Shown piece after piece: positions 2,636-34,565 of a stretch of 34,565 nucleotides of DNA (position 1 is its first letter; every line of letters begins with the position of its first letter). The stretch is taken from positions 1 through 34,565 of the IMG/VR virus record IMGVR_UViG_3300025141_000375; one strand, given 5' to 3'. The position numbers and the translations under genes were made by a program. The notes beneath the pieces are model-generated. The model saw nothing but the letters and a program-made list of their open reading frames with translations, made no database searches and was not told the DNA's origin. The DNA is from a virus.

Positions 2636-5600
2636 TTAATCTTCCTTTGTATTATACCTTCTTGTGAATTAAATTGATCTTCTGCTTCTTGCATTCTATC
2701 ATTAGGGTCACCTGATACTTCTTTCATTATCTTTCCAACATTGTATAGTGGTGCTCTATTGTAACCACTGTGATCTAAACCAGGAGGTATATCATGAATT
2801 ACACTAAGTGTCAAACTAATATCTACACCCATAGGTGCTCTACTATTGAATTCTGTTTCCCACCCATAATCATCATTGAGCCAATTAAATGTGACACCGC
2901 CTAGAGTTCCTGCCAGACCTCTACCCATATTAGTTTCAAATGCTCTTGTTACAGGATTGTAAAAAGAATTCATAAAAGCTTCGGGGCCATTAACTGCTGT
3001 ATTGAAGGCATTTGAAGCAATTTTACCTACTAAATTTTTATCATTTGCTTGATTTGATTTTGATGACTTAGTTAACCATTCCCCTACACCTACGTCACCT
3101 TTGCTTATTTGCTTACCATAGGTTTGATCGTATATATCTTTATAATCAGGTATTATATCGCTATGTGATACTTTAAACTTTTTACCTACAATACTACCTA
3201 GAAATGCATCTATAACCTCTAGTTTATATTCTGTGTACTTATTGTACTTGGCATTTCCAGATACATTTGCAGTTACAAAATGAGACTCTGCGTTTTTAAT
3301 TTCTCTTCCAATTACCTTGCATAGTATGTTTCTATTAAATAAATATTTTTCCCCATCTGTATCTATTAGAAATTTTTCAGGACTTGATTTCATAAAGACC
3401 ATGTCATTAGGAAAATAACCTTTTTTTGAATCTTGCTGTGATTCAGCGAAAAGAGAAGGATCTATAAGTTTGTTAATGATATCATTAATAACAATTGGGT
3501 TGACAAAACCATTGATTAATCCTGCTGCTTGATCTTCAATTATTTTACTAGAAATTTGATCAACTGCTGTATTGACAAAATCTGATTTAAGAAAAGTGTT
3601 ATTTAATCCTTTTAGACCTGCGCTTGTCATAGAAGTTTTACCTATGGGAGATCCATATTTTGAAGCAAATATATTTAAAAGTGCATCTCTAACATTAAGC
3701 CTACCAACCCCGGGTATATCTAAGCCTATACCTGACAAATTTGTTAGAGCAGAAGCAGTATCTAAAATTTGTGAAAAGCCATCATTCCCATCGAATGAAG
3801 GTCTAAGATTTGTACCTAAATCACCAGCGCCAAAAATTCTACTTAAGTTAAATTTTGAATAGTTTGATTTAATTACATCTCCTATTCTTACCCTAACTAG
3901 AGGTGTTGCTCCTATGACTTGACTAAATGGTTGCTTGAATACTGCAGAAGTTGCGCTTTCAAGCATTGCAACATCAAAAGGAGCATTACTTTTTCTAATT
4001 GTATCTCCGTCTGTATACTGCGGATAGAATAAAGTAACTAGTTTATTTATTTTATACCACATTTCATCAAAGTCTTGCGGGTTTGTTGCTATTAGTTTAA
4101 AAGCAAACGATACTGTTCTAGATGTTTTTCCATAAGTCTTAATAGGATCTAGTCGTCCATAACCAGTCGACTCGTTATACGATGGATTAATTGCGTCAGA
4201 TAGTGTTGTTAAAAAGCCATGAAATGCAATTATCTCATTTGTTCGCAAGTCTGTAATATAAAATGGCAAATATTCTGCTTCATATCTGTCTTCCATTTCT
4301 TTTAAAACTTCAATGGGTATTCTATTATAGCTTCCTTGAAGCCCAACGGCAGTATAAGTTTTATTTGCTAAACTACTACCTAACATACCTCTTGAAGGAT
4401 TTGCGCCTTTAGAAATAGTATTCATATCCAATGAAGCACCTACTACATTTAAAGGTAATATGTAAGCAGAAGGAAGATTCATACCAGAAAAAGAAAGATT
4501 AGTTTTATTTATTGCACCTGATCTAGACTTCATGACACGCGTGCCAGGTATAGTAGGTAATGAATCAACATCTCTAGGATTTGTAGCAATTTCATTGCCT
4601 GTTTTTCCCATATTTGCAGTCAAATGTACATCGCCCACTGTTGCTATTGCATTCATAAATCTTAACAAAGCACTATTTTTAACTTTATCAACAAAAAGAA
4701 TGGTATTCTCAAGAAAAGTTGCACTTTCATCACTAGAGAAAGGAGAACTCAAGACACCCTTTGATCGCTTAAGAACAGATATAAAAATTGACATCCAATA
4801 ATGTGAGTCTGTTGTAAGAATTTTACTGGCATTTTTGTCATTAATTTCATTTTTAGAATTGACTCGTGAGGTAAAAAGAACACGAATTCCCATATCAACA
4901 CAATCGTAGTAACTATGAATAGTTTTTACAAATAATTTCTTCTTTAAAAAATCTACATTATGAAGCACATCTGGTTTATACTTACCTTTTACTCTACTAT
5001 CAGTTTTATCAGAAAATATTTCTTCTAGTGCATTACCATTTTTCTTTCTACTTTTGACACCAATAGTCTCAATTTGATCGAAAGCAATCAATATTGCTTT
5101 TTTAATTGCTACTAGTGCTATAGCAGCATGATTTCTAAGAATATCGTAATTTTTATCAAAGTGATTAATTTCTTGATTATAAAATGTACCAAATTTTTCT
5201 GATCTTTCGCTAGGTGAAGCTTCACCCTTACCTAGGCGCGCAGAATTTCCTTCATTGTCAGCAGGAAAACCAAATGAGTTTTTTGCTTTAACTGATTCAT
5301 TAGATATATTGTTAATACCTGCTTGTGATAATATACTATTAGCATTTAATATATCAAATTGTTCCGGATCTATACTATCTAAAATATTATCGCTACTATC
5401 CCACCCACCGGCTTTTAATAGTAATGACTTACCTATATTTTTAAGACTATCTAAATTAGTTATGAATTTTGATCGATCAAAATCACCAAAATCATTTTGT
5501 ACTTGCATTGTACCGTGTTCATTGACTCCGGCTTCAAAATCTTGACTAGAAATATTGTTGGGTTTGAAAACTTTTAATTTATTAGTAGGGCTAAATCTAT

Positions 5601-6342: not shown

Positions 6343-8268
6343 TTAGGGCCCTCCTGCAGCGGCACCGACTCCAATAGACGTAACAACGCCCTCCGAATTA
6401 ATTACTCCTGTAACACCTGAGCCTCCCCCTGCTAACTCTTTGGCTCTTTTATGCGCTGCTTCAGCTTGAATCACGCCTTCAACCGCAGCATGTTCCTTAC
6501 CTTTTTCATGCGAAGCATTTGAGTAAGCAGTACCTGCTACTTGAGCGTTTTGCAATGTTTTCTCCATATCAATATCACTTTGCTTAGTAGTAATACCCTC
6601 AAGCTTATTTTTTAAATTTTCTAATTTCTCAGCAGCACTATCATAGCCTTCGTTTATTGCACCATACAATTCAGTTGTTATTGATTGTTGTGCTCTTGAT
6701 GCCATCGTTCCTATAGCTACACCTGTCTCTCTCATTTCTCTTCTAAGCTGTTCAGTATGCCTAACCATTTTTGACCCTATACCAAAACTAGATGTTTTAT
6801 CAATCTTAGCTTGGAGCTCTGCACCAGTTTGTGAAAAAGAAAGAGCACTCTCTTTCATAAGTTTAAAAGCATCTTCTTCTGGCATATCTTCTTGAGCAGC
6901 TTTTAAATCTTCAAGTGATGTTATATCCTGATCAAAATCAAAAAGCCTAGCAGCTTCCTCTATTCCAATACCTAATTGTCCTGCTAAGAGCTTTTGCTGT
7001 GCAAGATTCATGTCTTCAAATGCTAAACCTTGCTCCTCAAACTGAGATCTCATTGTCATTAAAAACTCTTCTTGATCTGTATTTGCTAACATCATCATTT
7101 CCATAGCATCAACATTCAAACCAAACGCTGCAGTCAGGTTACCAACTGCACTGGCCGCTGTGTCAAAATCTGAAAATTTACTAATTAACTTTCCTAATGT
7201 ATCTGCTCTAATTCCTACTTCTGCTAATTGTGCTGCTATTCTTGAAGCCTCTTCATCCAAAACATTACCAAAATTTTGTACATCAGCTTTGATATCAGCA
7301 AAATTTTCAAATATAATTTTTCCTGATACACCTGTTGCTTCTTGAGCTGACATAGAAAATTTCACAATATCTTTAAAATTTTGTATTGAAGCCTTGCCTG
7401 TTTGATCAATTGATCTAGAAATGATTTTTGCTATCTGATCTGACTCAGCACCCATACTTTGTGCAATTGTTTCTAATTCGAGCATGGCTGTGCCTTCTTT
7501 AAAAGCACCTGTAAATTTCTCTTGATATGTGAAGGCAAACTCTTTTTGCAAGTTTAAAAATCTTGTAGCAGCATCGGCAGGATCCTTGACAATTCTAAGA
7601 TACTCATTTGCTTGATTTTTTAAAACTTCAACAGAACCATCTGGAAGTATTTCAGGGAACATAGAGCTATCAGCTCTAAGTATAGGGTTGTCTCTTAATT
7701 CCTCATTTGTCATAAGAACAGACTTACCGATATTTTCATAAGCCTCTATAGCATCACGTGACATTCCAATGCTAGATTCTTTCATTAAATCTGCTGTGCC
7801 GCCAAAACTCTTCTGTACATATTCAAAATATTCTTGGTGTGCGCCTCCAAGATTGTTTAGTAATTTTTCAACGCCCTTATAACCATCATGTAGCTTGTTA
7901 AAAGTCTCTGCGCCTATATTTGTAGCTTTTTTAAGTTTTGTGACAAATGTTTCATCTAAACCTAATTGCTGAAGTTTTGCTGTATCAAGAGATAATATTG
8001 TCTCAATATTAAGATCCTGACCTTCTCCTAAAGCTTGTGTATTTAACTTAAGTTGTTCGTCAAGTTCTTTCTGAGTCTTCGTGTTCTGCTTGACGTCTTC
8101 TGACTTAAGCTTACCCGGGTCTTTTTTATTAAATTCAGCTAGTTCTGTTAATACTAAGCCGAACCAACTTGATCCTTCGTAGCCTTTGTAGGCATTAAAA
8201 GCTTCAGTAACAGCTGTATTAAACGTACTTGATGTGCCTGTTTTTAAGTCATTAAATGTACCGCTCAT
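6343..8268 (-). CDS. Tail tape measure protein (T4 gp29-like role)
   Basis: A 641-residue, almost wholly alpha-helical protein lying after the tube gene and the gp26-type tail-assembly gene, the usual tape-measure position. The centre has Ala/Gln/Glu-rich helical runs and the segment AVGNLTAAFGLNVDAMEMM typical of tape measures of T4-like marine phages. The C-terminus turns Gly/Ala/Ser-rich (GGGSGVTGVINSEG). ATG 8268 has AGGGTGA upstream. Length fits T4 gp29 (590 aa); using the general rule of about 0.15 nm of tail per residue, the tail would be near 95 nm, which is a prediction only. There is no obvious transmembrane segment or lytic domain. Confidence 0.75.
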   Translation of the reverse strand: MSGTFNDLKTGTSSTFNTAVTEAFNAYKGYEGSSWFGLVLTELAEFNKKDPGKLKSEDVKQNTKTQKELDEQLKLNTQALGEGQDLNIETILSLDTAKLQQLGLDETFVTKLKKATNIGAETFNKLHDGYKGVEKLLNNLGGAHQEYFEYVQKSFGGTADLMKESSIGMSRDAIEAYENIGKSVLMTNEELRDNPILRADSSMFPEILPDGSVEVLKNQANEYLRIVKDPADAATRFLNLQKEFAFTYQEKFTGAFKEGTAMLELETIAQSMGAESDQIAKIISRSIDQTGKASIQNFKDIVKFSMSAQEATGVSGKIIFENFADIKADVQNFGNVLDEEASRIAAQLAEVGIRADTLGKLISKFSDFDTAASAVGNLTAAFGLNVDAMEMMMLANTDQEEFLMTMRSQFEEQGLAFEDMNLAQQKLLAGQLGIGIEEAARLFDFDQDITSLEDLKAAQEDMPEEDAFKLMKESALSFSQTGAELQAKIDKTSSFGIGSKMVRHTEQLRREMRETGVAIGTMASRAQQSITTELYGAINEGYDSAAEKLENLKNKLEGITTKQSDIDMEKTLQNAQVAGTAYSNASHEKGKEHAAVEGVIQAEAAHKRAKELAGGGSGVTGVINSEGVVTSIGVGAAAGGP

Positions 8269-8312: not shown

Positions 8313-8328
8313 TCTAGAAACTTCTAGA
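8313..8328. repeat. Perfect 6-bp inverted repeat hairpin (TCTAGA-AACT-TCTAGA)
   Basis: A perfect stem with a 4-base loop lies exactly at the last codons and stop (TAG, 8314-8316) of the frameshift-frame reading frame, 45 nt before the tape-measure ATG. There is no T-run directly after it on either strand, so it is not a typical intrinsic terminator. It could stabilise the mRNA 3' end or modulate tape-measure translation. Function unknown. Confidence 0.35.
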
Positions 8329-8523
8329 CGACTTATTGCTTTGTGAATCTGTCATCTTCTTACGATGTTCAGCTTCATCATTAAGTGATTTAATATATCT
8401 ATCGATATACCAACTTCTATATCTTACAGGCATTTTTCTTACATCAGAGTATGAAATTCCCAGGTGTTTCATGAGTGCATATGACTCTTCAAGAAAGGAT
8501 TTTTTTATGCTGTCAGGCAGGCC
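8314..8523 (-). CDS. Out-of-frame 69-codon extension of the gp26-type tail gene
   Basis: After the T-run at 8524-8531, the frame shifted by +1 (equivalently -2) stays open for 69 codons from GGC (8521-8523) to TAG (8314-8316). It encodes GLPDSIKKSFLEESYALMKH, then LGISYSDVRKMPVRYRSWYI, then a charged tail. It looks like real protein: the SY-DV--MPV--R-WYI pattern is similar to the small helical proteins that accompany tail assembly chaperones. Directly upstream in this frame is a TAG stop, and no ATG/GTG/TTG start exists before the internal ATG at 8470-8472. So either ribosomes shift frame at T8, or an ATT start (AGGAAGAA precedes it) or the internal ATG (52 aa) is used. A homopolymer sequencing error that hides a fused gene is the other possibility. 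Confidence 0.6.
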   Translation of the reverse strand, partial: GLPDSIKKSFLEESYALMKHLGISYSDVRKMPVRYRSWYIDRYIKSLNDEAEHRKKMTDSQSNKSSRSF

Positions 8524-9328
8524 AAAAAAAATTTCTTCCTATTGGAAGTGGTATCTGCGACTCGTGAGAGCAATATTTGCATTTATAGTGGACTTCCGTT
8601 TCTATTTTAGGTTCTAGTTCTGATACGTAATTTCTAAATTTTTTTGAATCATATGCCGGCATAATACTTATAAATTTTTTAATTTTATTTCTATCAGTAA
8701 TACCATCTATAGACAAGACTCGTTTAAATATTCTAGAAGTCACTCTTCCTGTATTTGCCTCACCTAGCATTTTGGACATATTTTCTATTTCACCATCAAT
8801 TTGATTCTCGTCTTCTGAATTAAAAAATCTAAAATGAACTATCTTTTTTGAAACAGGCAGTCTAAATTCAAAAATATTCTTACCAGGTTCAATAGGCTCA
8901 ATGTTTAACTGCTTAACTTCAAGCTCACTTAAGTTAAAATTATGATCGCAAGACTTTCCACATGCATTACAAGAAACTTCAGCATTATAATCAGCACCAT
9001 ATCCAGTTACTCTTATCGAAATAAGTAAAGCATTTCTGTCACCAAGTAAAAGCTGGCCTATGTCTTTCAAAGAAGCACCTGTGCATGATGCTATCAAATG
9101 ATCTATTGCTGACCCTTCTTTACTATATGCTCGAGATGACAGTATGTCTTCCTCTCTTGCTGTCATGGCTTTGATTTGAATTAAACTTTTATTATAGAAA
9201 AAAGAATCAGGAGAGTATAACAACCCTCCTGATGGTAGTGGAACCGATTCAATAGGCACTTCCCAACCTAAAGCACTTTCGTTAATATCATTGAGCGGCT
9301 TGTAAGAACCTTCTGGTAACTGTGACAT
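8513..9328 (-). CDS. gp26-type baseplate hub / tail-assembly protein with zinc ribbon
   Basis: 271 residues in the zero frame. The N-terminal region VPLPSGGLLYSP ... KAMTAREEDIL matches the T4 gp26-like baseplate family (Pfam 'T4_baseplate'), often annotated as baseplate hub assembly chaperone. Two CxxC knuckles, Cys120-Asn-Ala-Cys123 and Cys250-Lys-Tyr-Cys253, form a probable split zinc ribbon. The protein ends NFFWPA, and the codons for NFF run through an eight-T homopolymer. The gene sits between tail tube and tape measure, the classic position of tail assembly chaperones. It has GAGG upstream of ATG 9328. It may exist in two forms: 271 aa, and about 337 aa if frameshifting joins it to the 69-codon extension at 8314-8523. 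Confidence 0.75.
   Translation of the reverse strand: MSQLPEGSYKPLNDINESALGWEVPIESVPLPSGGLLYSPDSFFYNKSLIQIKAMTAREEDILSSRAYSKEGSAIDHLIASCTGASLKDIGQLLLGDRNALLISIRVTGYGADYNAEVSCNACGKSCDHNFNLSELEVKQLNIEPIEPGKNIFEFRLPVSKKIVHFRFFNSEDENQIDGEIENMSKMLGEANTGRVTSRIFKRVLSIDGITDRNKIKKFISIMPAYDSKKFRNYVSELEPKIETEVHYKCKYCSHESQIPLPIGRNFFWPA
8524..8531 (-). other. Candidate ribosomal slippery site (T8)
   Basis: In the minus-strand mRNA the zero frame reads AAT TTT TTT TGG, then CCT GCC TGA. Phe codons in a U8 run allow slippage. A +1 or -2 shift here enters the 69-codon open frame, whereas a -1 shift meets TAA after six codons. No strong stimulatory stem is obvious just downstream. Confidence 0.45.
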
Positions 9329-9377: not shown

Positions 9378-9872
9378 TTAAAATTGTAAGATGCAGTTGT
9401 CTAATTCTATTGCAAGTGTAATATCATGAGGAGTTCCATCATCATCATAATTCAACTGATTAAAATCAACGCCTGTTAAAAAAGCTCCTTTAATATCCCA
9501 AAGCTCTACAACTGTTCCAACCGGATCTAGAATTTTTATTTGTATATCACGCTTATAAAAGTCAGCGTAACCTGCTCTACCGCTTACAGACTCATGATGT
9601 GTTCTTATCCACTCCATTACTTGCTGAGCACCACTAGGGGCAATAGGATCATAAAGCGTAACACTAATTCCTCCCCATGTTCCTCGAGCACCAGCAATTC
9701 TTCTGTAGCTATTCATAAATTTAAACTCTTTAGAACCTATATTCCACTTTGGACGTCCTGTGGTTTTAACAAGAAATGCATCAATTCCTTCGATAGCCAA
9801 GACAAATCTATTTTGTCTTTTTGGTTCAAATTTATTGGGAAGCATATCTGCAACTGAAAGTGTTTCTGCCAT
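9378..9872 (-). CDS. gp19: Tail tube protein (T4 gp19-like)
   Basis: 164 residues, the same size as T4 gp19 (163). It begins MAETLSVADMLPNKFEPKRQ and has the typical series RFVLAIEGIDAFLVKTTGRP, GTWGGISVTLYDPIAPSGAQ, QVMEWIRTHHE, and a C-terminal hydrophobic strand ending CILQF, all features of the Phage_T4_gp19 family. The protein polymerises as stacked hexamers forming the inner tail tube through which DNA passes. It follows the two sheath genes with a 31-nt gap and an AGGAG ribosome-binding site 8 nt before ATG 9872. It is followed by the gp26-type gene after a 49-nt spacer. Confidence 0.93.
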   Translation of the reverse strand: MAETLSVADMLPNKFEPKRQNRFVLAIEGIDAFLVKTTGRPKWNIGSKEFKFMNSYRRIAGARGTWGGISVTLYDPIAPSGAQQVMEWIRTHHESVSGRAGYADFYKRDIQIKILDPVGTVVELWDIKGAFLTGVDFNQLNYDDDGTPHDITLAIELDNCILQF

Positions 9873-9903: not shown

Positions 9904-12864
9904 TTAGATATTTGCGCCGGCATTTGTTACAACAAAGTCTAGAGCAATAAACTCAACAGTACGTGTAGGTTGTAAGAATATCTTACCTCTAATTGTATTA
10001 TTTTCAACATCGGCTTGAGTCGTTGTACTTGTATCTATTATTACTTTATATCTATCAACGCCTCCTTGCTCTTGAACTCTCTGCATAATAGGATTAACTA
10101 GGCTGCTAAATTTATCAAGAGTTTCCTGCCTATTTGGTTCAAACAATAATGAATTAGCAACTTGTCTAACAGATCTTCTAACATTAATTAAAAGCCTTCT
10201 AACATTTATTCTATCTAACGATGAAGCATTTGCTTGCAACGTCTTTTGCCCATAAACAACTACACCTGTTCCTGGAAATGATGTCAGCGGATTAATATCT
10301 ACATCATACAAGTCATCTAAATTCTTTCTAGATAGTCGAACATTAGCTCCTTCAACTGCATTGAGAGCCCCTCTCGTAAATCCTGCAGGAGCAAACCAGG
10401 GATGCGCAATTGCATCGTTTAAAGAGAAAGCGCCCAATACTGCAGCAGTTGAGGGTGCGACAACTAGATTATCTGTAGTTGGATCTCTTAAAACAACATC
10501 AGGAAAATAAGCAGCTGCAAATGAACTATCCAAACCTCTATTCTTAAATCTCTGAACTGTATTTTTAACATCAACCAAATCACTTGAACCGGTCATGACA
10601 TTATTCGAACTATTAACTTGCTCTATATCCATCAAGTATAATGCATCAAATCTATTCTCAATAGCAGATATTGCGTAGTCAGTTACAGTTGGAACTCTAA
10701 TTCCAGGAATTGCCAAAAGTTTTATGTCTACTTCTGATTTAACGCCCATTACATCAATTGCTTTTCTATATGCTGCTGCTGTTGACCCATTAACACCACC
10801 TTGATCTGATTCATTGTCAATTTCTCGTTTGATAGCATTGTTCTTTAATTCTCTTTTATCTGTATTGAATACATCAGTTCCATCCCAGCCTCCTTGCAAG
10901 AAGAAAGAGAATTTAGCAAATCTTCTATTACCCGGAGTTTCTAAGTCTGATGCTCGAAAGTATCTTGTTTTATTATCATCATTTTTTGCATCTAAATTTA
11001 AACTAGCATTTCTAATATATGAAGCAGAATGCCATTGTTCAACATCTGCTGCTAAGTTACTACCATCAGAGCCTGCTGATCCTGTACGAACTCTAACATG
11101 TTCTAAGTTGAATAGATTATAGCCTATTGTATCTGAAGCTTCATAAAAATTTCTTCCATCTTTTCTGTGACTAGGGAAAAACTTGACATAAGAATTAAAG
11201 CTTTCATTAAATAGAGACGGCTTATTAGGTTGATCAATCGTATCAGAGTCATTAAATTGCATGCCCCAATATAGATTATTTGCAACTCGCTTTTTAGTTC
11301 CTGTCCCTAAAGCAATTGTTTGTCTAAAAGGTATCGGAGGCTGTAAAACTGTTCTATGAAAATCAATTCCTGTATGTTCTGTTGGTACGTAAGGATTATT
11401 TAAAATTGAACCTGAAGATACGACTTGAAGTGGTCCTCTAAAACCAAAAGGTACTAATTCTTTAGATAAAACACCGTTATTTAAATCATCAGTAGTTTCA
11501 ACCCTTATATATCTTGATTTAACTGGGTGATTACCTGTTATATTTATTTTTTGCGACAAGGTATCCTTATCAAAATCAAAATAAGTATGCATATCACCTA
11601 TAGCTCGAGCGATATATCTATCTGAATCAGGATTTAAATCAATTCCTCTGAAAGATTCAAATACAACTTTTTTCTCATCACTATCATAAAAGTCTCGCAA
11701 TACTAAATCAAATGTTGGATATGTTGAAGCATTAATTCTTGTAATATTCTCTATTGATATTTTATATCTAGTATTAATTGCTGCACCTGCAGAAAGAGCA
11801 TGTATCTTAAATAAACTAGTATTTGGTGATTGTGATATGACAAAAGGTGAGGATGCATACTTAAATCTATCTCTAAAATCTTCATAAAGCGGAACTGTAC
11901 TAGATGGCGATGACGCACTTCTTCCTAGCGAAGATGTTAACAAAAATGAGCTACCTTCATGCGTTGTACCTGCAGCAGCAGTAATGTTACTGTTAATAAT
12001 ACCTGAACCTGTAACGCTGGCATAAGCTGGCGCAATATTGTAATATGTATATAGTAAATGACCTGATTGTTCGAACTTATCCGGATCTGTATTTAATTTA
12101 TTTGCAAAATAGTTCGGTGAAGTTTTGTTAAAAGAAGCAGTGATGACGTTAGGGTACGTTGAAGTGTTTTTATGTCCGTTAAGCAACATAATAAAATTTT
12201 GGTTACTAGTCTCAACAGATCCGGTAAAGAACCCTTTTCTTCCTACTAGTTTAGATGAATCTTCGATAGCAGTTACTGCAGATGATGGTGCTTGTTGTAG
12301 AGAAGCTTCACCCAAGTGTAACACAACTCCACTTGGAGCCATCAAGACACCTCTAAGTATTGCTGATCCTGTCGTATTGCTTTGTATACCTGCAGTACTA
12401 AATATTGTAGATCCTGCAGATTCTGACATGAAGCAACCTAAGAAATAAGTCCTTCCTTTAATTTGAGGTTGACCGGTAGCGCTATATGCAAAAGTATTAT
12501 TTAGTACGTTACCATCATTTTGAATTAATTGGTCACCTACAAAAAATCCAGCACGATTAACGACTCCTGTTGATGTTGATCTTTTTTTACCGTCGCCTAT
12601 ACCTAAAACTCTTATAAAAGTACAAGATTGCGCACTTTGCAACCATTGACTTACAGCTAGCGGGCCAAATTTAGAACCATCAGAAGCTCCGAATATATTT
12701 TGAAATTCTGTAAAATTTGAAATTGTCACAGGTACAAAAGCAGGCCCTTCATTTGATGTTCCAATAACACCTGCGGGTATACCTACTGGAGCAGTCTGTG
12801 TTGGGAAGGAAAGATCTATTTCTCTAGAACTAACTCCTGCACTTTTAAATATTAATTCTGCCAT
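9904..12864 (-). CDS. gp18: Tail sheath protein, second paralogue (gp18-like, 986 aa)
   Basis: N-terminus FKSAGVSSREIDLS and GIPAGVIGTSNEGPAFVPVT are the sheath hallmark (phage sheath N-terminal domain). The last ~250 residues contain FAAAYFPDVV, the APAGFTRGALN segment, VVYGQKTLQANASSLDRINV and the terminal RTVEFIALDFVVTNAG, the sheath C-terminal domain that builds the contractile core. T4 gp18 is 659 aa; here about 300 extra residues lie in the middle, probably surface-exposed insertion domains. It starts at ATG 12864 with GGAG 9 nt upstream, 33 nt after the stop of its paralogue. The same two terminal domains are found in the neighbouring gene, so this is a tandem duplication. Confidence 0.92.
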   Translation of the reverse strand: MAELIFKSAGVSSREIDLSFPTQTAPVGIPAGVIGTSNEGPAFVPVTISNFTEFQNIFGASDGSKFGPLAVSQWLQSAQSCTFIRVLGIGDGKKRSTSTGVVNRAGFFVGDQLIQNDGNVLNNTFAYSATGQPQIKGRTYFLGCFMSESAGSTIFSTAGIQSNTTGSAILRGVLMAPSGVVLHLGEASLQQAPSSAVTAIEDSSKLVGRKGFFTGSVETSNQNFIMLLNGHKNTSTYPNVITASFNKTSPNYFANKLNTDPDKFEQSGHLLYTYYNIAPAYASVTGSGIINSNITAAAGTTHEGSSFLLTSSLGRSASSPSSTVPLYEDFRDRFKYASSPFVISQSPNTSLFKIHALSAGAAINTRYKISIENITRINASTYPTFDLVLRDFYDSDEKKVVFESFRGIDLNPDSDRYIARAIGDMHTYFDFDKDTLSQKINITGNHPVKSRYIRVETTDDLNNGVLSKELVPFGFRGPLQVVSSGSILNNPYVPTEHTGIDFHRTVLQPPIPFRQTIALGTGTKKRVANNLYWGMQFNDSDTIDQPNKPSLFNESFNSYVKFFPSHRKDGRNFYEASDTIGYNLFNLEHVRVRTGSAGSDGSNLAADVEQWHSASYIRNASLNLDAKNDDNKTRYFRASDLETPGNRRFAKFSFFLQGGWDGTDVFNTDKRELKNNAIKREIDNESDQGGVNGSTAAAYRKAIDVMGVKSEVDIKLLAIPGIRVPTVTDYAISAIENRFDALYLMDIEQVNSSNNVMTGSSDLVDVKNTVQRFKNRGLDSSFAAAYFPDVVLRDPTTDNLVVAPSTAAVLGAFSLNDAIAHPWFAPAGFTRGALNAVEGANVRLSRKNLDDLYDVDINPLTSFPGTGVVVYGQKTLQANASSLDRINVRRLLINVRRSVRQVANSLLFEPNRQETLDKFSSLVNPIMQRVQEQGGVDRYKVIIDTSTTTQADVENNTIRGKIFLQPTRTVEFIALDFVVTNAGANI

Positions 12865-12897: not shown

Positions 12898-15800
12898 TTA
12901 CTCAAAACTTACACCTGAATTTGTTATAATAAAATCAACAGCTATAAATTCTACTGCTCTAGTCGGAACTAAAACAATTCTGCCATTTAATCTATTTTGT
13001 TCTGCATCCTGGGGTGTGTTATTAGATGCATCCATAATAACTCTAAATGATTCAATGCCTTGTTGACTTTGTATTGATGCTAAAAGTGGATTAACTTGAG
13101 AAATAAATCTGTTACGTGTTGCTTGATTATTCTGTTCAAAAACAAGTTGGTTAGCTATTCCCTCTACTAGTCTTCTTACTTCCAGTAACATTCTTCTAAC
13201 ATTGACTCGATCTAGCGATGACTTAGCAAATTGTAATGTTTTTTGCCCAAATATTACATACCCGCTATTAGGAAAACTAGCAATCGGATTTAGCCTTGCT
13301 TCATAAAGCTTGTCGCGATCTCCTGCTGTTAGCCTTGCTTGCGTTTGTTTAACAAAGTCGAGTGATCCTCTATTAAATCCAGCCGGTGCAAACCAGGGAA
13401 ATGAAACAGAGTCACTAAAACTTAAAGCACCTAGTGCAGCTATTGATGCAGGGACTACAACCATTCTGCCTGTATTTTTATCCTGAATTGTAACATTAGG
13501 AAAATATGCAGCTGCAAAAGAACTATCTAATCCTCGAGCATCAAATCGCTCAGATGTCTCTCTAATACTCGGGATAATACTTTGCCCATCATATATTCTT
13601 GTACCGTCATCATCAAAATTTGCAATATCAATAACGGCGATAGCTTTACCAAACTCTTCAGTTTTTTCTATTAGATGATCTGTAATAAATTCGTCTCTCT
13701 GGCCGGGTACAGATACAATATTAACATTAGAATTCATAGGATCAGTAATTATATCAATCGCAGTTCTGTATGACTTGATTATGTTATTACTCAACCCTGT
13801 ACCAACTGTAAAATCAGAAGATAACCCTAATCTACTTTCACCATCACCCGAAGCTTTTCCTCCGGTATCAGTAGAACTAGATCGATCACTCATCTTGCGC
13901 ATATCCGTGTCAAAGATATTTAATCCATCGAAACCACCATAAAATACATTTGTAAACTTATTATAAGCTGTAAATCTATTAAAATATTTAGCACTAGTAT
14001 CTTTAACTAATGTTGCTAATGTAATTCTATTACTATAGTCTCCAGAAGTTATTAAGTTGTCAACAGGGTCTGGGATACCATTTCTAATATAAACTGCTTC
14101 TAGTATATGATCAGCAGCAGATCCTGTAATTTGTGCTGATACAGTTCCTGCATTTGAAAATGCAACACGTGCTAATGTAAACTTATTATTATTAAAAGTA
14201 TCAGATTTTGACCCAGTTGTCAAAACATCTAATTTTTGTATACCACTAAACTTAATATAGTTATCAGTAACTTCATTAATTAAACCACCTGCGTTAGTAT
14301 GTAAAGCTGCCTGTGACAAACTTGATGTTAAAGGTAGTCTTGTTGTCTTAACACCCCAATAAATTCTAGAATCTGCAACTTCAGAGTTTCCTGCATCTCC
14401 AAAGTACCCGCCGCTAGCATTAACTGCTCCTCTTGTTGCTTTTATAGTAAAAGGTAATGGGGGTATAATCGATCCTGACATTGCAACAACAGCATCTAAA
14501 TCATCAACATCGTTACTTCCAGACAAAAATCCTCCTAGAAATGTTGAACTAGTACTTACAGGTTCGTCTTTAAGTGTGCCATTAGTAATTAAAGCAGGAA
14601 TTCCTCTAAAACCAAAAGGCAGTGCAGCCTTGGGTATGTTTCCTGCATTATCAAAAGCAGAATTCATAATAACTCTAATATAGTTAGACTTATTTGAAAA
14701 TTTTCCTGTCTTAACTAATCTACGTTCTGAATCACTAAGCGCATCAAAATTAAAGAAAATTTTCTCATCTCCGATCTTTTTAGCTATGTAATTTTCGTCA
14801 TTTGGATTTAAATTTAAATTTGTAAATTGCTCGATAATTTGTGTAGATTTATCTATATCCCTATATCTTCTAACTTCTATAGAAAATGTTCCATAAGGGT
14901 TGAGTGGATCTGTTGATCTTCTTATGCTGCTTACTGAAATTTTAAATTCATATTGAGTCTTAGCTCCATCATCTAAAGTTTCAAAGTGAAATAAGTCGTA
15001 TTCTTTATCACCAAAAGGTTGAGAAATAAAACTGGTGGTTCTAGAGTTTGAGTATCTAGTATCAAACTTACCATAATTATTTCTTCTTGCTTCTGTCGAT
15101 CCTGAAAGAAGTCCTACTGTGCCTTGAGTAGCAATATATTTAACTCTTACGATTTCATCCTCAACTGGATAATGAAGATAAAGTAAATGTTCTTTTGATT
15201 GAAAATTTCTATGATCTGTATTTAGTACTTTACTAATATAATAATCACTGCTTGGGTTTAGTGATGCAGTATAAATTTCAATTCCTTCGTAACCTTCTTC
15301 AGTATTGAAACCTGCACCTGCTGATGAAGAAATTACTAATTTAAAAGTACCCTGCTTTTTTGAATTATCGTAAGCTGATATTGACCCAGTAAATGATTGA
15401 TTAGATAATCCTGCAATATGTGAGTATGAAGCATGTGTATCTAGTATTTCCATTCTAGATCCGGATGCCATAAAAATAACACCTCTTACCATGTTAGCTT
15501 GGCCGGTTCCGAAGGAATCGTTATCAGTAAAGATAGGGTAAGATAATGATTCTTGACCACCTTCGTGTATTTCATGATTTGCAACAAGAAACTGTACACA
15601 ACCTGCATGTGAATGATTTGCTGTGGATCCATGATTACTTGCATCAGATCCTTTTATAATAAAACCTGCATTTTTTACAGTTCCGTTTGTTTTTGTTGTA
15701 TCTATTTCTGCTTGTGTTGAATTCGCTCCTGCACCAAGTACTCTAACATAGGTTGCAGCAGTTCTATTTTTAAGAAACTCATTGACCATGTATGGCCCAA

Positions 15801-15993
15801 ACATTTCGTGATCTAGATCACCGAACTTATCAATAAACTCAGACATTGATCCAACAGTAATAGGAATAAACGCAGGCCCTCTTTTTGAAGTACCTACAAT
15901 ACCTGCAGGAATTCCTAAAGTTTGCTGTGACCTAGTAGATAGATCAATTTCTTTTTCAAAAAAACCTGGAGATTTAAATGTTTGTTCAGCCAT
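12898..15993 (-). CDS. gp18: Tail sheath protein, first paralogue (gp18-like, 1031 aa)
   Basis: N-terminal KSPGFFEKEIDLS and LGIPAGIVGTSKRGPAFIPI, and C-terminal FAAAYFPNVT, GYVIFGQKTLQFAKSSLDRV and RAVEFIAVDFIITNSGVSF, all identify a contractile tail sheath protein. Both conserved end domains align well with the following gene while the middle (roughly residues 100-650) is divergent and long. AGGAG lies 7 nt before ATG 15993. It is the first gene after the gp15-like terminator, as gp18 is in T4. Two intact sheath genes suggest either a sheath built of two subunit types or alternative sheaths; neither copy has a stop or frameshift. Confidence 0.92.
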   Translation of the reverse strand: MAEQTFKSPGFFEKEIDLSTRSQQTLGIPAGIVGTSKRGPAFIPITVGSMSEFIDKFGDLDHEMFGPYMVNEFLKNRTAATYVRVLGAGANSTQAEIDTTKTNGTVKNAGFIIKGSDASNHGSTANHSHAGCVQFLVANHEIHEGGQESLSYPIFTDNDSFGTGQANMVRGVIFMASGSRMEILDTHASYSHIAGLSNQSFTGSISAYDNSKKQGTFKLVISSSAGAGFNTEEGYEGIEIYTASLNPSSDYYISKVLNTDHRNFQSKEHLLYLHYPVEDEIVRVKYIATQGTVGLLSGSTEARRNNYGKFDTRYSNSRTTSFISQPFGDKEYDLFHFETLDDGAKTQYEFKISVSSIRRSTDPLNPYGTFSIEVRRYRDIDKSTQIIEQFTNLNLNPNDENYIAKKIGDEKIFFNFDALSDSERRLVKTGKFSNKSNYIRVIMNSAFDNAGNIPKAALPFGFRGIPALITNGTLKDEPVSTSSTFLGGFLSGSNDVDDLDAVVAMSGSIIPPLPFTIKATRGAVNASGGYFGDAGNSEVADSRIYWGVKTTRLPLTSSLSQAALHTNAGGLINEVTDNYIKFSGIQKLDVLTTGSKSDTFNNNKFTLARVAFSNAGTVSAQITGSAADHILEAVYIRNGIPDPVDNLITSGDYSNRITLATLVKDTSAKYFNRFTAYNKFTNVFYGGFDGLNIFDTDMRKMSDRSSSTDTGGKASGDGESRLGLSSDFTVGTGLSNNIIKSYRTAIDIITDPMNSNVNIVSVPGQRDEFITDHLIEKTEEFGKAIAVIDIANFDDDGTRIYDGQSIIPSIRETSERFDARGLDSSFAAAYFPNVTIQDKNTGRMVVVPASIAALGALSFSDSVSFPWFAPAGFNRGSLDFVKQTQARLTAGDRDKLYEARLNPIASFPNSGYVIFGQKTLQFAKSSLDRVNVRRMLLEVRRLVEGIANQLVFEQNNQATRNRFISQVNPLLASIQSQQGIESFRVIMDASNNTPQDAEQNRLNGRIVLVPTRAVEFIAVDFIITNSGVSFE

Positions 15994-19213: not shown

Positions 19214-19501
19214 CTAGTTTAATCCACCATCTACAATATATTGAATAAGTTTTTCGCCTGGCGACATATTATCATCATACATGGATATAATTTCTTGATG
19301 TTCGTTTTGTACATATGCATCAATATCACCTCCGAACCTTTTTGCCATTTTTTGCGCAAGTTCAATTGCTTCATCATATGAATCATAGCTATTTATACTT
19401 TCTGGTATTTCTTCTGGTGATATTGGATCTTTTTCTAAACTTACCTCAGGAACATCATCACTATAGGTCATTTCATATAATCTTTTGTATTTTTTACTCA
19501 T
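19214..19501 (-). CDS. Small acidic uncharacterised protein
   Basis: 95 residues, strongly acidic, starting MSKKYKRLYEMTYSDDVPEV. The centre is a predicted helix (YDEAIELAQKMAKRFGGDID) and the C-terminus reads GEKLIQYIVDGGLN. The ATG overlaps the end of the lipoprotein thioredoxin gene by 8 nt, with AGGAG 8 nt upstream, so the two are co-translated. The form (short acidic protein with one amphipathic helix) could be a regulator or a small inhibitor, but no family is recognised. It ends the accessory island. Confidence 0.6.
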   Translation of the reverse strand: MSKKYKRLYEMTYSDDVPEVSLEKDPISPEEIPESINSYDSYDEAIELAQKMAKRFGGDIDAYVQNEHQEIISMYDDNMSPGEKLIQYIVDGGLN

Positions 19502-20051
19502 TTAACATCTCCTCAATGTGTGCCTCAATAGACTCTGAACTAAATCCTTCCTGCATACTAATTATTCTCATATTTTCGTCAATAAAATAAAAAGTAGGTA
19601 ATGATGTCATATAAAACCCATCAGCTGTTCCAATTGGACTAGGCGTCAATATTGATCGATCACCACCCCATACAGGAGCTGTCGTGATATCATTTTGTGA
19701 TTTCCAGTTTTTTAAATCTTGTATGCTCGGCGGATTTCCGCTTGTATTTTCAAAAAGAAGTGTCAGGTATTGTAAGTTATATTCGCTATAATCATCTTGT
19801 ACTTGTTGTACTTCTTGCGCGGCCATACGACAAGGCCCACACCATGCTGCAGATATATCTAAAATGAACGGCATGCCTTCTAAATCGTAAAGACTAGTAA
19901 TAACACCATCACTGTTAAAAGATTCAAAATTACATGGTCTATGATCCTCTATGTGTATACATTTTTCTATCTCTTGCACAATAATGTTTGGGTTAATAGA
20001 GTCATCAACAATAGGTTGATCACAAGCTAATAAACTTAATAAAAATAACAC
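19494..20051 (-). CDS. Lipoprotein with thioredoxin/TlpA-like domain
   Basis: 185 residues from a GTG start at 20051 with a strong AGGAGG site; a TAG lies in frame three codons upstream, so no longer start is possible. The N-terminus MLFLLSLLAC is a very short leader with a lipobox (L-L-A-Cys10). Asp at +2 (Cys-Asp) is the inner-membrane retention signal in E. coli. The rest is a thioredoxin fold: FILDISAAWCGPCRM with redox pair Cys71/Cys74, and the cis-proline loop at TSLPTFYFID (Pro152). A second Cys pair (31 and 40) may form a disulfide. Predicted role: a membrane-anchored, periplasm-facing thiol-disulfide oxidoreductase. It lies between a structural-type protein and a small acidic protein. 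A cellular-style redoxin in a late region suggests capture from a host. Confidence 0.85.
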   Translation of the reverse strand: MLFLLSLLACDQPIVDDSINPNIIVQEIEKCIHIEDHRPCNFESFNSDGVITSLYDLEGMPFILDISAAWCGPCRMAAQEVQQVQDDYSEYNLQYLTLLFENTSGNPPSIQDLKNWKSQNDITTAPVWGGDRSILTPSPIGTADGFYMTSLPTFYFIDENMRIISMQEGFSSESIEAHIEEMLNE

Positions 20052-30777: not shown

Positions 30778-31612
30778 TTGAATCTCCTTTGATCAATTGA
30801 TCCTTAAGCTTAGATAATGTCATATATTTTATAATCGTATTATCGTCCTGAGATTGTATGCTTAATTCATTTATCTTTTGATAAACAGCATCAATCTTAG
30901 ACAAAAGTATGTTATTTTTTGTCTTTTTACTAAACTGTTCTACCTCTAGTAGTGTTTTTTGTTTAACATTACTTAGATACTCTTTTAATGTTTTATCATT
31001 ATTGCAGTATAATGCATAATTTTTCAATATATCTTTTTGTTCCTCTGTTAACGTATTGATATATTTTTTATTGATATTTTCTGTCATAATTTTCAAAACT
31101 AATGCATCAGATCGCTCATCAAATTCAATTTTTTTTGTTTCTTTACTTTCAAGCAAGTGTTCAACTATATCTCTTTCATAAGATATGACTTTAGAAAAAT
31201 TTGCACGATCACCTGCAGACCATTCATTGATTAAAGTTTGAATTGTTGCATAAGTTTTAAAATTAGGCACACGTATGTTATAAAAGTTATTTTTGCCTAA
31301 TTGATAGTTAATGTCTTTTATTAAAAGTGACTTTTCTTTCATTAATTTAGTTTTATCAAAGTTTCTTGACGCAGTTTTTGCTTCTGCTAACACACCTGCA
31401 GCTATGTGTGTTCCACTAACTGTTGAATTGGCTAGTGCATTTAAAAGTCGAAATTCTTTATAAAGCTCAGTATTTTTATTATATCTGCGCTCGACAATAC
31501 TTAAAGCTTTTTTGGCATCTTTGTGTCGATTATCTATAACAGATTCAGTAATGTAATTCATTAGCATTTCATAGACAATACCTACATTCCTTTTTTTGTT
31601 ATGTTTCGTCAT
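30770..31612 (-). CDS. Uncharacterised protein between portal and protease (280 aa)
   Basis: The start at ATG 31612 (MTKHNKKRNVGIVYEMLMNY) has AAGGAG 7 nt upstream and overlaps the portal stop by 14 nt; an earlier ATG lies deep in the portal gene and lacks a site. The protein is Lys-rich and almost fully helical, with segments RHKDAKKALSIVERRYNKNT and TLLEVEQFSKKTKNNILLSK. One L-A-E|A and one L-L-E|S occur, so it could be a gp21 substrate and thus a core protein. In T4 this slot holds gp67/gp68 prohead core proteins. A similar role is inferred by position only. Confidence 0.65.
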   Translation of the reverse strand: MTKHNKKRNVGIVYEMLMNYITESVIDNRHKDAKKALSIVERRYNKNTELYKEFRLLNALANSTVSGTHIAAGVLAEAKTASRNFDKTKLMKEKSLLIKDINYQLGKNNFYNIRVPNFKTYATIQTLINEWSAGDRANFSKVISYERDIVEHLLESKETKKIEFDERSDALVLKIMTENINKKYINTLTEEQKDILKNYALYCNNDKTLKEYLSNVKQKTLLEVEQFSKKTKNNILLSKIDAVYQKINELSIQSQDDNTIIKYMTLSKLKDQLIKGDSNE

Positions 31613-34565
31613 TATTTTCTCCTTGATCTTTATTTTCAAAAATAACATGGGGTACTGAATTTTTATGATCTTCTAGTGATCTAAGTGCTGACTGTATTCT
31701 CCCAGTCATCCTGCCTTGTTGAGACATCTTATAATCTAAGTATTCATCAATATTAAATTCATCCAAATTATGTTCATTTACATTTGAATATTTATAAGAG
31801 CTCTTTAGGTCAGATAACTCTCTTTTCATACCTGTTGGATCATCTTTATTCCCTTTATTTTTACCTGCAATATTCAGCTGATCTGTTCCGGTCAATTCTT
31901 TTGTTTGTCTTTTACGTTGCTTTTCTTTTCTTTCATCATCCATTTCTTCTTGAAATTCTTCTGATTTTGTTTTTTTCCTTTCTTCATCTTCTGAAAGTAT
32001 AGAAGTTAATTTTTTAATTTTATTAGCAACTCTAATTGGCGATTCATCGTCATCAAGTTTAAGTTCTGCTAATGTTTCGCCTCCTGTATCTTCTATAGGC
32101 GACTCGTCTGGCGAATCTACTGGTTCTGAACCAAACATATCGTCACCGGGTATGTCATCTGCGGCGCCAAACATATCGCCACCGGCCATTCCGTCATCAG
32201 TTAATGCCCCTTCTTCTGCAGGCGAATCAATCTGTACTGCTTCTAATTCTAAATCAAATAACTTGTCTTTCTTTAAACCGTTCTTGATACTGTCTATTTC
32301 TTCATCTGTTAATCTAAGAATATTTTTTTGCAACCATCGTCTATCAGTTGTATTTGCTACACCTGCAACTGTTCCTGCAGTAGTAAACCTTTTTTCTATA
32401 AGCTCAAGTTTTTGAAGCTGTGCAATTGTAGATGGTGTAGATAAACTGATATCAAAATCTAAAAGGTCTTCTCCGCTGTAACCATTACAATATAGGTGTA
32501 TGATTGCAAGTTTGTTCATTTCAGCTAATACAGTCCTTTGTATCCTAGCTATTGTTCTTGCAAATCTAATATCTTGTTGTGAAAGTGTTGCTTTACTACC
32601 CAATCCCTCCTCATACCCCAAATAAGCCTTTGGAACCTTTAAAGCAGCAAATAATTTTTTTTGTATATACTCGACGTCTGTTGTATCACCTGATATTGAT
32701 TGCCCTTCTACACTCTCAATTCTTGTACCACTCTCACCTCCTCTAACTGGAATAAAATAATCTTCATCAATAGACAAGGGATTATATCTCAAATCTACAC
32801 GCCCAGTGGTTCTATCTACAACAGATGATTTTTTTAATGATGTCTGAGCTTGCTCCATGTAGTTTGCTATCTCTTCTGGCGGGACATTACCAACGTCGAT
32901 ATAAAATGCCCTTCTAGCAGGTGCACGAACAATTCTAAAAACCATCATTGCGTCTTCTAGTAAAATTAACTGCCTCCATATCCTACGAGCTGGTTCTAAA
33001 ATTGAAGAACCGTACGGTAAAAATGCGTCATTACCCAACAATCTCATATGTGATACTTGCCAGTTTTCTAATACTTTATTTCCTTGTGTTACCCATCTAA
33101 ATCTTACAGCCATTGGGTCTTTTGGATCAAAACCTTCTTCACGTTCAACTTCTGATATGGGAAGTGGAAAGGCATTAATCACACCATACTCTGGACTTAC
33201 ATCGTTAAATAGAAAGAAGTCTCCATATTTGACAAGATTTCGTGTCCAAGCAGTTAAGTTAAATTCTACATTAAGCGTATCATAAAACATGTCTTCAAGA
33301 AGCTTTCTGATTTGTGTATTTTCTGAATAAACATGTAAAACTTTCCCATGCTCATCTGCTGCAACTGTCTCTTCAGCATATATATCTAAAGCACCTGCAA
33401 TTTCAGGTGTATTATGTGAAATAACGCTATCAGTTGCAAAGTTTTTATAACCATCAACTGTTAGATCGTAAAGATCAATGACTTTAAATGGTTCAATAGA
33501 CACAACTTTATGATTATTGTAGTTCGCTGAATATTCAGTAAAATTCTTATATCCGTTTGACTTAAGTCTATTAGAAAGCTTAGCAGATGATGTATTTAAT
33601 TTTTTTAACAAAGATGTCTTAGTCATGCCAACAGTGTATGCATTACATATTTTTTGGAACGTCAATGTCCTATCGTATCTCGGGTTTTTATTTCCGACAT
33701 TATTCCACCCATTATTTTTCCAGTCGGAGGAATACGTTTTTGCGAATAATTCAAAATTAGAAAATCCTTTTTTAGCTAATCTTCTTTTTATCACGTTCGG
33801 GTCTGTATCTAATCTCCTGCAAAGATGATATAAATTGTATCCTTCGTTTTCGCAAAGATTTAAGATTCTTCCAAAAGTAATGTCCTTTCTTTCTGCAGGA
33901 TTATTTTCTGACATAAATTTTGATTGTTTGATTTTAAAGTCATTAATCCACTCACTATTGTTAACCTTATCCCACTTTTTACCATTTAGTATTTCAGAGT
34001 GATATCGAAGATGAGCTTTAGCATCCATAATCCTCAAATTAGAAGGACTGTTGTCATTTCTTTGAAAGTTGATATGATGAACATGTTCTGTTTCCAAAAC
34101 TTTTCTACCTGCTACCCATTCTGCAATGATCTTATGCTCTGTATTCCATCCATTCTTAAGCTTTGATGATGTGCGATCCATGTTATAAACCCACTGATAA
34201 CCTTTTTCATCTTTTTTATCAAAAAGATTTCTTCTGTAAAAAGGCATAAGTGCATCGCCTACGCTTAATTCTTCTATATTCTTATAAGTTCCGTCTCTAA
34301 GCATAAGCTTGTGATTTGATGTTCCAATTATTTCTTTACCACTATCAAACGTAACCTTATACGACATGTCTGTCCTAGTTTTTCTAGCTTGTTTTCCTAA
34401 TGCTGGAACTATTTGCTTTTTTTGATGATCATACGCATAAACAACAAAAGTTTCATTGACGTCGTATTCTTCTGACAATTGTTTAATCGTCTTATAGCCA
34501 CCCGGAATTGCGATCTTAGTGTCTCCATGCAAGCAATATTCCATTTCACTAAAATCACTATACCT
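31599..34565 (-). CDS. gp20: Portal protein (T4 gp20-like), 5' end beyond window, with intein
   Basis: The frame is open through the right edge (RYSDFSEMEY is encoded by the last 30 bases), so the true start is outside the window. An intein (33411-34535) interrupts it; removing it joins SEMEY to TPEIAGALDIYAEETVAADE, the usual gp20 N-terminal core. Further gp20 features: LVKYGDFFLFNDVSPEYG, QLILLEDAMMVFRIVRAPAR and AFYIDVGNVPPEE, then YLGYEEGLGSKATLSQQDIR. The C-terminal ~150 residues form an acidic/charged tail with repeated GDMFG/DDMFG motifs. The protein forms the dodecameric ring at the head vertex for DNA entry and exit and starts prohead assembly. The C-extein part is 603 residues; T4 gp20 is 524 in total, so this portal is enlarged. 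Confidence 0.95.
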   Translation of the reverse strand, partial: RYSDFSEMEYCLHGDTKIAIPGGYKTIKQLSEEYDVNETFVVYAYDHQKKQIVPALGKQARKTRTDMSYKVTFDSGKEIIGTSNHKLMLRDGTYKNIEELSVGDALMPFYRRNLFDKKDEKGYQWVYNMDRTSSKLKNGWNTEHKIIAEWVAGRKVLETEHVHHINFQRNDNSPSNLRIMDAKAHLRYHSEILNGKKWDKVNNSEWINDFKIKQSKFMSENNPAERKDITFGRILNLCENEGYNLYHLCRRLDTDPNVIKRRLAKKGFSNFELFAKTYSSDWKNNGWNNVGNKNPRYDRTLTFQKICNAYTVGMTKTSLLKKLNTSSAKLSNRLKSNGYKNFTEYSANYNNHKVVSIEPFKVIDLYDLTVDGYKNFATDSVISHNTPEIAGALDIYAEETVAADEHGKVLHVYSENTQIRKLLEDMFYDTLNVEFNLTAWTRNLVKYGDFFLFNDVSPEYGVINAFPLPISEVEREEGFDPKDPMAVRFRWVTQGNKVLENWQVSHMRLLGNDAFLPYGSSILEPARRIWRQLILLEDAMMVFRIVRAPARRAFYIDVGNVPPEEIANYMEQAQTSLKKSSVVDRTTGRVDLRYNPLSIDEDYFIPVRGGESGTRIESVEGQSISGDTTDVEYIQKKLFAALKVPKAYLGYEEGLGSKATLSQQDIRFARTIARIQRTVLAEMNKLAIIHLYCNGYSGEDLLDFDISLSTPSTIAQLQKLELIEKRFTTAGTVAGVANTTDRRWLQKNILRLTDEEIDSIKNGLKKDKLFDLELEAVQIDSPAEEGALTDDGMAGGDMFGAADDIPGDDMFGSEPVDSPDESPIEDTGGETLAELKLDDDESPIRVANKIKKLTSILSEDEERKKTKSEEFQEEMDDERKEKQRKRQTKELTGTDQLNIAGKNKGNKDDPTGMKRELSDLKSSYKYSNVNEHNLDEFNIDEYLDYKMSQQGRMTGRIQSALRSLEDHKNSVPHVIFENKDQGENNDET
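33411..34535 (-). other. HNH-endonuclease intein in portal protein (375 aa)
   Basis: A complete class 1 intein. Block A starts at Cys1 (CLHGDTKIAIPGG), block B is GTSNH (71-75, with Thr72 and His75), block F is VIDLYDLTV (352-360), block G is VISHN (371-375) with the terminal His-Asn, and +1 is Thr. All splicing residues are present, so it should splice. The inserted domain is an HNH homing nuclease: EHVHHINFQRNDNSPSNLRI (His153/His154, Asn166) and HLRYH (175-179). After it come two related DNA-binding units, residues ~209-268 and ~281-339, each with an NP motif (ENNPAERKD, NKNPRYDR) then a helix-turn-helix-like part, NUMOD-like. It sits in the conserved portal core next to PEIAGALDIYAEE. Confidence 0.93.

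Follow-up and report, generated by a model that had tools for sequence, protein, structure and literature searches.

The window, meaning the whole stretch of DNA analysed here, is a 34,565-base virus fragment from IMG/VR and carries a gp26-type locus on its minus strand. The features of this locus and of other genes in the window are as follows.

9904-12864 and 12898-15993, minus strand: tandem, very long tail sheath-like genes of 986 and 1031 aa, with sheath domains near the C-termini
9378..9872, minus strand: tail tube (gp19-like), upstream neighbour; Pfam PF06841, E=8.7e-4, below the curated cut-off
8513..9328, minus strand: short-form gene, gp26-type (PF12322, T4_baseplate), 271 aa, ending RNFFWPA-stop; from ORF, Pfam and PHROG
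8535..8548, minus strand: hairpin CUUCC-AAUA-GGAAG, candidate 5' stimulator, ending 7 nt before the P-site codon; from folding
8531-8524, minus strand: run of eight T (T8); from sequence
8522..8530, minus strand: predicted shift site UUU_UUU_UGG, inside the T8 run; from sequence and 156 +1 relatives
8527-8525, minus strand: P-site UUU, predicted to re-pair with UUU at 8526-8524, with the A-site UGG at 8524-8522; from sequence
8513..8515, minus strand: zero-frame stop UGA, the third codon beyond the A-site codon; from sequence
8314..8523, minus strand: +1-frame extension GLPDSIKKSF...SSRSF-stop, 69 codons plus stop; conserved in 156 relatives
8314..9328, minus strand: the whole unit as a +1 fusion, the predicted long chaperone of 337 aa; AlphaFold2 model
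6343..8268, minus strand: probable tape measure, downstream neighbour, 641 aa; by position, with no Pfam match
19494-20051, minus strand: thioredoxin/AhpC-TSA-like protein with motif WCGPC, among virion genes
31599-34544, minus strand: T4-type portal (Portal_T4, E 9e-67); from Pfam

The original prediction had placed the gene and its extension between tube and tape measure. This placement holds: in annotated relatives the tube lies in the same place, upstream of the gp26-type gene, and the phages immuto and LIS04 have an annotated tape measure at the same position. Two side observations concern more distant genes. The portal gene contains an intein near its start (Intein_splicing, E 6e-15) with an HNH endonuclease-like stretch, and the N-terminus of the thioredoxin-like protein resembles a lipoprotein signal.

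Pfam PF12322 matches residues 49-268 of the 271-aa ORF (E=1.2e-18), the PHROG search returned phrog_150 'baseplate hub' (E=3.6e-21), and the alignment of relatives with the 271-aa protein runs to its last residues. On the minus strand the 3' end of this ORF reads AGA AAT TTT TTT TGG CCT GCC TGA, and the sequence at 8531-8513 confirms the earlier description of a zero frame that ends NFFWPA-stop after T8. The frame one base ahead reads FFGLPDSIKKSFLEESYALMKHLGISYSDVRKMPVRYRSWYIDRY... and stays open until the TAG at 8316-8314, in agreement with the 69-codon extension originally reported. Its first ATG is at about the 18th codon past the shift, within the conserved domain, and the claim that no ordinary start precedes it was borne out. 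The canonical −1 arrangement, an X_XXY_YYZ heptamer with an extension in the −1 frame, does not describe the window, where the extension lies in the +1 frame; at the site in L001, a second assembly of the same virus that may come from the same sample, the −1 frame shuts two codons beyond the zero-frame stop. Searching the region against phage records with blastn gave no match, and searches of Pfam, PHROGs and NCBIfam with the extension gave nothing reliable. The +1-frame extension of a relative, L006, has a weak Pfam match to DUF6760 (E 0.086), a possible link to similar domains elsewhere.

We modelled the 337-residue fusion with AlphaFold2 from 79 standard-code alignment rows comprising the window and fetched loci. 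The model has a mean pLDDT of 91.2 and a pTM of 0.83, and the extension is predicted to form three helices (274-289, 293-298 and 301-331) with pLDDT of 81-95, falling to 74 at the very end. Matches of the model in BFVD are gp26-type proteins, the best being that of SP-15 (3e-19). Foldseek against the PDB yielded nothing significant; its highest-probability match there was the HK97 tail assembly chaperone 2ob9 (0.30, TM 0.48 to target, E 2.6), a resemblance between model and structure that is only a hint. An HMM search with the fusion profile against the PDB returned none.

Conservation of the slip site and direction of the shift

We compared the site with nine relatives of 42-100% identity. 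All nine have the zero-frame sequence XXX TTT TTT TGG CC, and all nine have a zero-frame stop a few codons on and a homologous peptide in the +1 frame. The run in the window is T8, as against T7 in diverged relatives, because the preceding codon is AAT. A profile scan supplied 80 further loci, taken from at least 598 matches. Among the first 86 relatives examined, the extension in the +1 frame spans 48-119 codons, with a median of 83, and the −1 frame is usually shut within about 12 codons; an open +1 extension of this kind is far beyond chance expectation. The zero-frame stop in these 86 loci falls 2-6 codons past the P-site codon.

The codon choice at the site is restricted. The P-site codon in the 86 loci is TTT in 75 and CTT in 11, and never TTC or another Leu codon, and the A-site codon is TGG in 82. 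P-site Phe is therefore encoded by UUU in 75/75, against 70% UUU and 30% UUC elsewhere in the same genes (p ~2e-12, uncorrected for relatedness), and P-site Leu by CUU in 11/11, against 26% CTT among Leu codons elsewhere (p ~3e-7, likewise uncorrected for relatedness). Around the P-site codon, positions −3, −2 and +1 to +7 are invariant, and positions −1 and 0 are only T or C. Synonymous constraint around the site, proposed earlier as a check, is among the highest in the gene: over 135 conserved degenerate codon columns, the Pro after the site ranks first and the P-site Phe third. Information by codon phase changes across the site from {.58, 1.01,.20} to {.35,.59,.87}, i.e. a frame switch. The CCU after UGG was considered as an RNA signal and rejected, as dual-frame coding (Pro in frame 0, Leu in frame +1) accounts for it.

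In a non-redundant tally of 240 relatives, 156 loci are +1, 77 are −1, with a canonical −1 heptamer before the extension, and 7 are unresolved, the last being contig ends, L016, L094 and one odd locus. The tally took only sites able to re-pair, and an unfiltered listing agrees. In 156/156 +1 loci the P-site codon re-pairs one base forward (UUU to UUU, CUU to UUU or UUU to UUC), the base after it being U apart from a few UUU_C. The A-site codon is UGG in most and UAC in 16. The CUU_UGG variant is represented by 14 non-redundant loci and UUC_UUU_UGG by several. Among named phages, Mel-JY01 has TTT TTT TGG, Flavobacterium immuto TTT CTT TGG, SP-15 TTT TTT CAC and Streptococcus GXN1 TTC TTT CGT. 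The 156 +1 loci answer the original question whether relatives keep the T-run and the out-of-frame ORF: the phase of the run and the out-of-frame peptide are both conserved.

Such conservation bears directly on two simpler explanations. One is a homopolymer error of sequencing or assembly in a single continuous gene, which would fit a junction that falls in a homopolymer, but the same phase recurs in more than 150 contigs, non-homopolymer variants among them, with conserved zero-frame stops. Because L001 also has T8 and diverged relatives keep the phase with T7, we exclude such an error, to which we give a negligible probability and which had originally been named as a possible refutation.

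The other is that the extension belongs to a small gene of its own, with a separate start, and is never fused. Annotation speaks for it, since Mel-JY01 and SP-15 list the extension as a hypothetical gene in its own right, and in OLIVR5 and phiM9 the small ORF that corresponds to it is annotated 'baseplate hub assembly catalyst'. Against it, the conserved domain begins at the slip site, the first ATG of the extension is usually at codon 13-34 (86 loci) and so within this domain, and the same two parts are fused in frame in T4 gp51 and in the second L094 copy. An independent start before the conserved domain, originally named as a possible refutation, is missing from nearly all relatives' extensions, and we regard a separate gene as highly improbable. 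A fused extension would account for a domain that databases list as separate hypothetical genes or omit.

The direction of the shift was less obvious, as the plain T8 of the window taken alone also permits a −2 shift or polymerase slippage. A −2 ribosomal shift, with precedent in phage Mu (PMC5009743), would give the identical final frame with one extra Phe, and the window's P-site UUU can indeed re-pair two bases back within T8. In CUU_UGG and UUC_UUU_UGG relatives, however, no such pairing is available, and −2 is therefore out at those loci; for the family we consider it very unlikely. The original prediction had left the direction as '+1/−2', of which the +1 half stands and the −2 half falls with the CTT TGG and TTC TTT TGG relatives.

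Slippage of the polymerase deserves somewhat more weight, although we still find it improbable. Here a hairpin-dependent event would drop one U, and part of the mRNA would already be in the fused frame. The conserved hairpin a few nt before the U-run resembles an intrinsic terminator, a one-base deletion yields the correct frame, and the T8 of the window allows forward realignment; there is also a precedent in Roseiflexus IS630 at T5C5, as PMC5009743 relates in its account of Penno 2015. By the same account, however, an rC:dA mismatch in forward realignment is not tolerated, and exactly this mismatch would be needed at the 14 non-redundant UUU CUU UGG loci and at several UUC UUU UGG loci. Moreover, the P-site codon is invariant at its third base, as is the base that follows it, while the base before the codon may be C, as a rule of codon-anticodon pairing would predict. 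In addition, two lineages have moved to ribosomal −1 heptamers. Since CUU_UGG and UUC_UUU_UGG break the homopolymer and would require the mismatch, +1 ribosomal frameshifting is the best supported reading of these sequences, and we infer that the slippage is ribosomal. Counted against the +1 reading is the A site of the window, which holds the sense codon UGG, unlike the UGA of prfB.

Taken together, the evidence makes it very probable that the locus specifies a short and a long tail assembly chaperone of the gp26/gp51 type, the long one made through a +1 slip at UUU_UUU_UGG. Normal translation, by most ribosomes, would give the 271-aa short form, like T4 gp26. A minority would pause with tRNA-Phe in the P site and UGG waiting in the A site, slip forward one base from UUU to UUU, and then read GGC CUG..., producing the 337-aa long form, whose added C-terminal helical domain would correspond to that of T4 gp51. 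The analogy with lambda gpG/gpGT suggests that the tape measure may be coated or bound by the short form, and that the domain added in the rarer long form may recruit the tube. The sequence tests thus support the original proposal of a programmed frameshift that makes two chaperones from a gp26-type gene. What appears to be new is the +1 class, together with the 5' hairpin and the switching of direction; that gp26-type genes are chaperones had been published in 2022. With the +1 reading, the gp26-type chaperone family would gain a +1 class, whose site is represented by more than 150 natural variants.

Among known +1 systems, the closest site is that of prfB (RF2), CUU_UGA, which shares the P-site YUU followed by U and differs from CUU_UGG by one base; there, UGA stands in the A site with an SD 3 nt upstream, whereas here we find a sense codon and an RNA hairpin. 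Structural genes of other long-tailed viruses also use +1 shifts, namely those of the HSTV-2 myovirus (a probable +1 tail frameshift) and of Listeria PSA, A118 and A500; in PSA, A118 and A500, unlike here, the shift occurs at CCC and the genes encode tail tube or capsid proteins (PMC5009743).

A candidate hairpin upstream of the slip site

The hairpin of the window has a folding energy of −5.7 kcal/mol (z −2.68). We examined the same region across the family against synonymous-codon randomisations. In 81 +1 loci, the 33 nt from −36 to −3 fold better than the randomisations with a mean z of −1.24; per locus, z is below −1 in 47 and above +1 in 3. Nine control windows farther upstream in these loci gave z of −0.32 to +0.12. 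Stems of at least 7 bp occur in 10 loci versus 1.2 expected. The signal recurred in 69 +1 loci outside the discovery set, with a z of −1.51 (47 below −1, 4 above +1), and five windows farther upstream in this set lie between −0.15 and +0.07. By contrast, 64 cyanophage-type −1 loci show no 5' hairpin signal in the same region (z −0.16). Sequence and register of the hairpin vary across loci, and some loci are without one. RNAalifold found no consensus structure in the ungapped region because the positions of the arms vary.

Signals other than the hairpin are distributed differently between the two classes. Downstream structure in the first +1 set is weak (z −0.66 versus −0.3 in control regions), and 3' structure reaches −1.83 in cyanophage-type −1 loci versus −1.09 in the new +1 set. 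In the cyanophage-type −1 loci, an SD-like motif precedes the A-site codon by about 15-19 nt in 69/79. At the +1 sites a prfB-type SD is not what we found, the SD-like motifs being placed at −33 to −30, with hardly any at −8 to −3.

We propose that the hairpin acts as a +1 stimulator: refolding behind the ribosome and adjoining the E site, it might block backward movement or push the ribosome forward. On 70S ribosomes, engineered upstream hairpins adjoining the E site raise +1 and dampen −1 frameshifting (PMC6321510; reviewed in PMC5009743). The SARS-CoV attenuator constructs are of this kind (PMC6321510, PMC3639245); their +1 tests were made in synthetic constructs, whereas here the candidate hairpin is natural and conserved, a case for which we found no report in the open-access literature. 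The more general proposal, to which we give an even chance, is that a natural conserved hairpin by the E site stimulates +1 shifting at the sense-codon site YUU_UGG without a stop codon or prfB-type SD in a large group of mostly uncultured phages, that the −1 relatives rely instead on an upstream SD and 3' structure, and that the same fusion has been rebuilt at least by +1, by −1 and by duplication. These loci would make it testable how a hairpin behind the ribosome sets the direction of frameshifting, a question previously confined to synthetic constructs.

An SD-like GAGG/GGAG at −33 to −28 (e.g. in L008, L009 and L049) was found in 56/81 +1 loci versus 26 expected from codon choice, and the excess was seen again in the 69-locus set; the motif is absent from the window. 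At this distance it is beyond the reach of known frameshift stimulation; it adjoins the 5' side of the hairpin, whose folding might shorten its effective distance. We considered whether the conserved GAGG near −31 might initiate an independent gene in the +1 frame and rejected this, since the columns at start-codon spacing can hardly be starts.

Relation to T4 gp26/gp51 and other solutions in the family

T4 gp26 and gp51 are the tail assembly chaperones of T4 (Vladimirov, Gautam and Davidson 2022, Virology 566:9-15, as cited in PMC10885494 and PMC12846349). Of the two, gp26 is the short form, and gp51 is a full-length PF12322 protein (E 4e-52) with an added C-terminal part. The extension of the +1 loci is homologous to that of the cyanophages (Prob 95, E 2.8e-8), which in turn matches the C-terminus of T4 gp51 (Prob 94, E 1.2e-7). 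Compared directly, the +1 extension and the gp51 C-terminus gave no significant match, so the link runs through the cyanophages. A combined extension profile scored 31 against the gp51 C-terminus, and none of 30 column shuffles scored above 14.3; with the profile of the whole fusion, the alignment to gp51 was collinear (Prob 72, E 3e-5). From the homology of the gp51 C-terminus with the extension it follows that in T4 two separate genes encode the short form and the long form. In keeping with this, PMC10885494, citing Vladimirov, Gautam and Davidson 2022, describes some T4-like phages with one short and one long gene.

The T4 pair therefore shares with the window the PF12322 domain, the same C-terminal addition on the long form, and short and long isoforms, but T4 uses two genes on opposite strands where the window has one gene with a +1 shift. 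T4 is described as the exception to the G/GT rule (PMC5009743). The lambda type, meaning gpG/gpGT and other G/GT tail assembly chaperone frameshifts, in the account of PMC5009743 and Xu et al. 2004, resembles the present locus in lying between tube and tape measure and in having a short and a frameshifted long form; it differs in shifting −1 at a heptamer rather than +1 at YUU_UGG, and the likeness is one without shown sequence homology.

Other members of the family appear to use −1. Of 80 cyanophage-type relatives, 79 have a complete gene, which ends T_TTT_TT[C/T/A] in 79/79 cases, and the homologous extension stays open for at least 40 codons in the −1 frame in 77/79, being cut short in 2. 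L104, L107 and L108-L187 are such cyanophage-type gp26 genes with a conserved U_UUU_UUZ −1 site; in S-BM3 and DSL-LC03, the extension is not annotated as its own gene. The extension likewise follows poly-T sites in the −1 frame in Rhizobium OLIVR5, phiM9 and Atu_ph04, in the jumbo phages RaK2, Munch and Atu_ph07, and in LR756511. PMC12846349, citing the 2022 work, mentions poly-T −1 signals in T4-like TAC-N genes. The −1 genes of cyanophages, Rhizobium phages and Klebsiella jumbo phages have a homologous gene and extension; what distinguishes the cyanophage type from the +1 loci is U_UUU_UUZ, the SD-like element, the stronger 3' structure and the lack of a 5' hairpin signal.

On a 205-row tree, the +1 label requires 6 changes, and the starred branches force at least 4. 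Three departures (L019, a seven-row clade and L094) are nested within +1 branches. L019 and the seven-row clade (SH-aLRT 99) have switched to −1 inside the +1 clade; in the latter, A_AAT_TTC lies one codon upstream and the old P-site codon is mostly TTC. The direction of the shift would thus have changed in these lineages while the product was kept, and the family, as its sequences read, uses +1, −1 or gene duplication branch by branch.

Duplication is represented by L094. Its first gp26-like copy, with the ending FFWPES-stop, lacks a slip site; it overlaps a second, tandem gp26-like copy (3249-4139, plus strand) that carries the extension as an in-frame fusion. To judge from these two copies, frameshifting in L094 is replaced by tandem duplication, as in T4 with gp26/gp51, and the T4-like two-gene solution was apparently reached again in this lineage.
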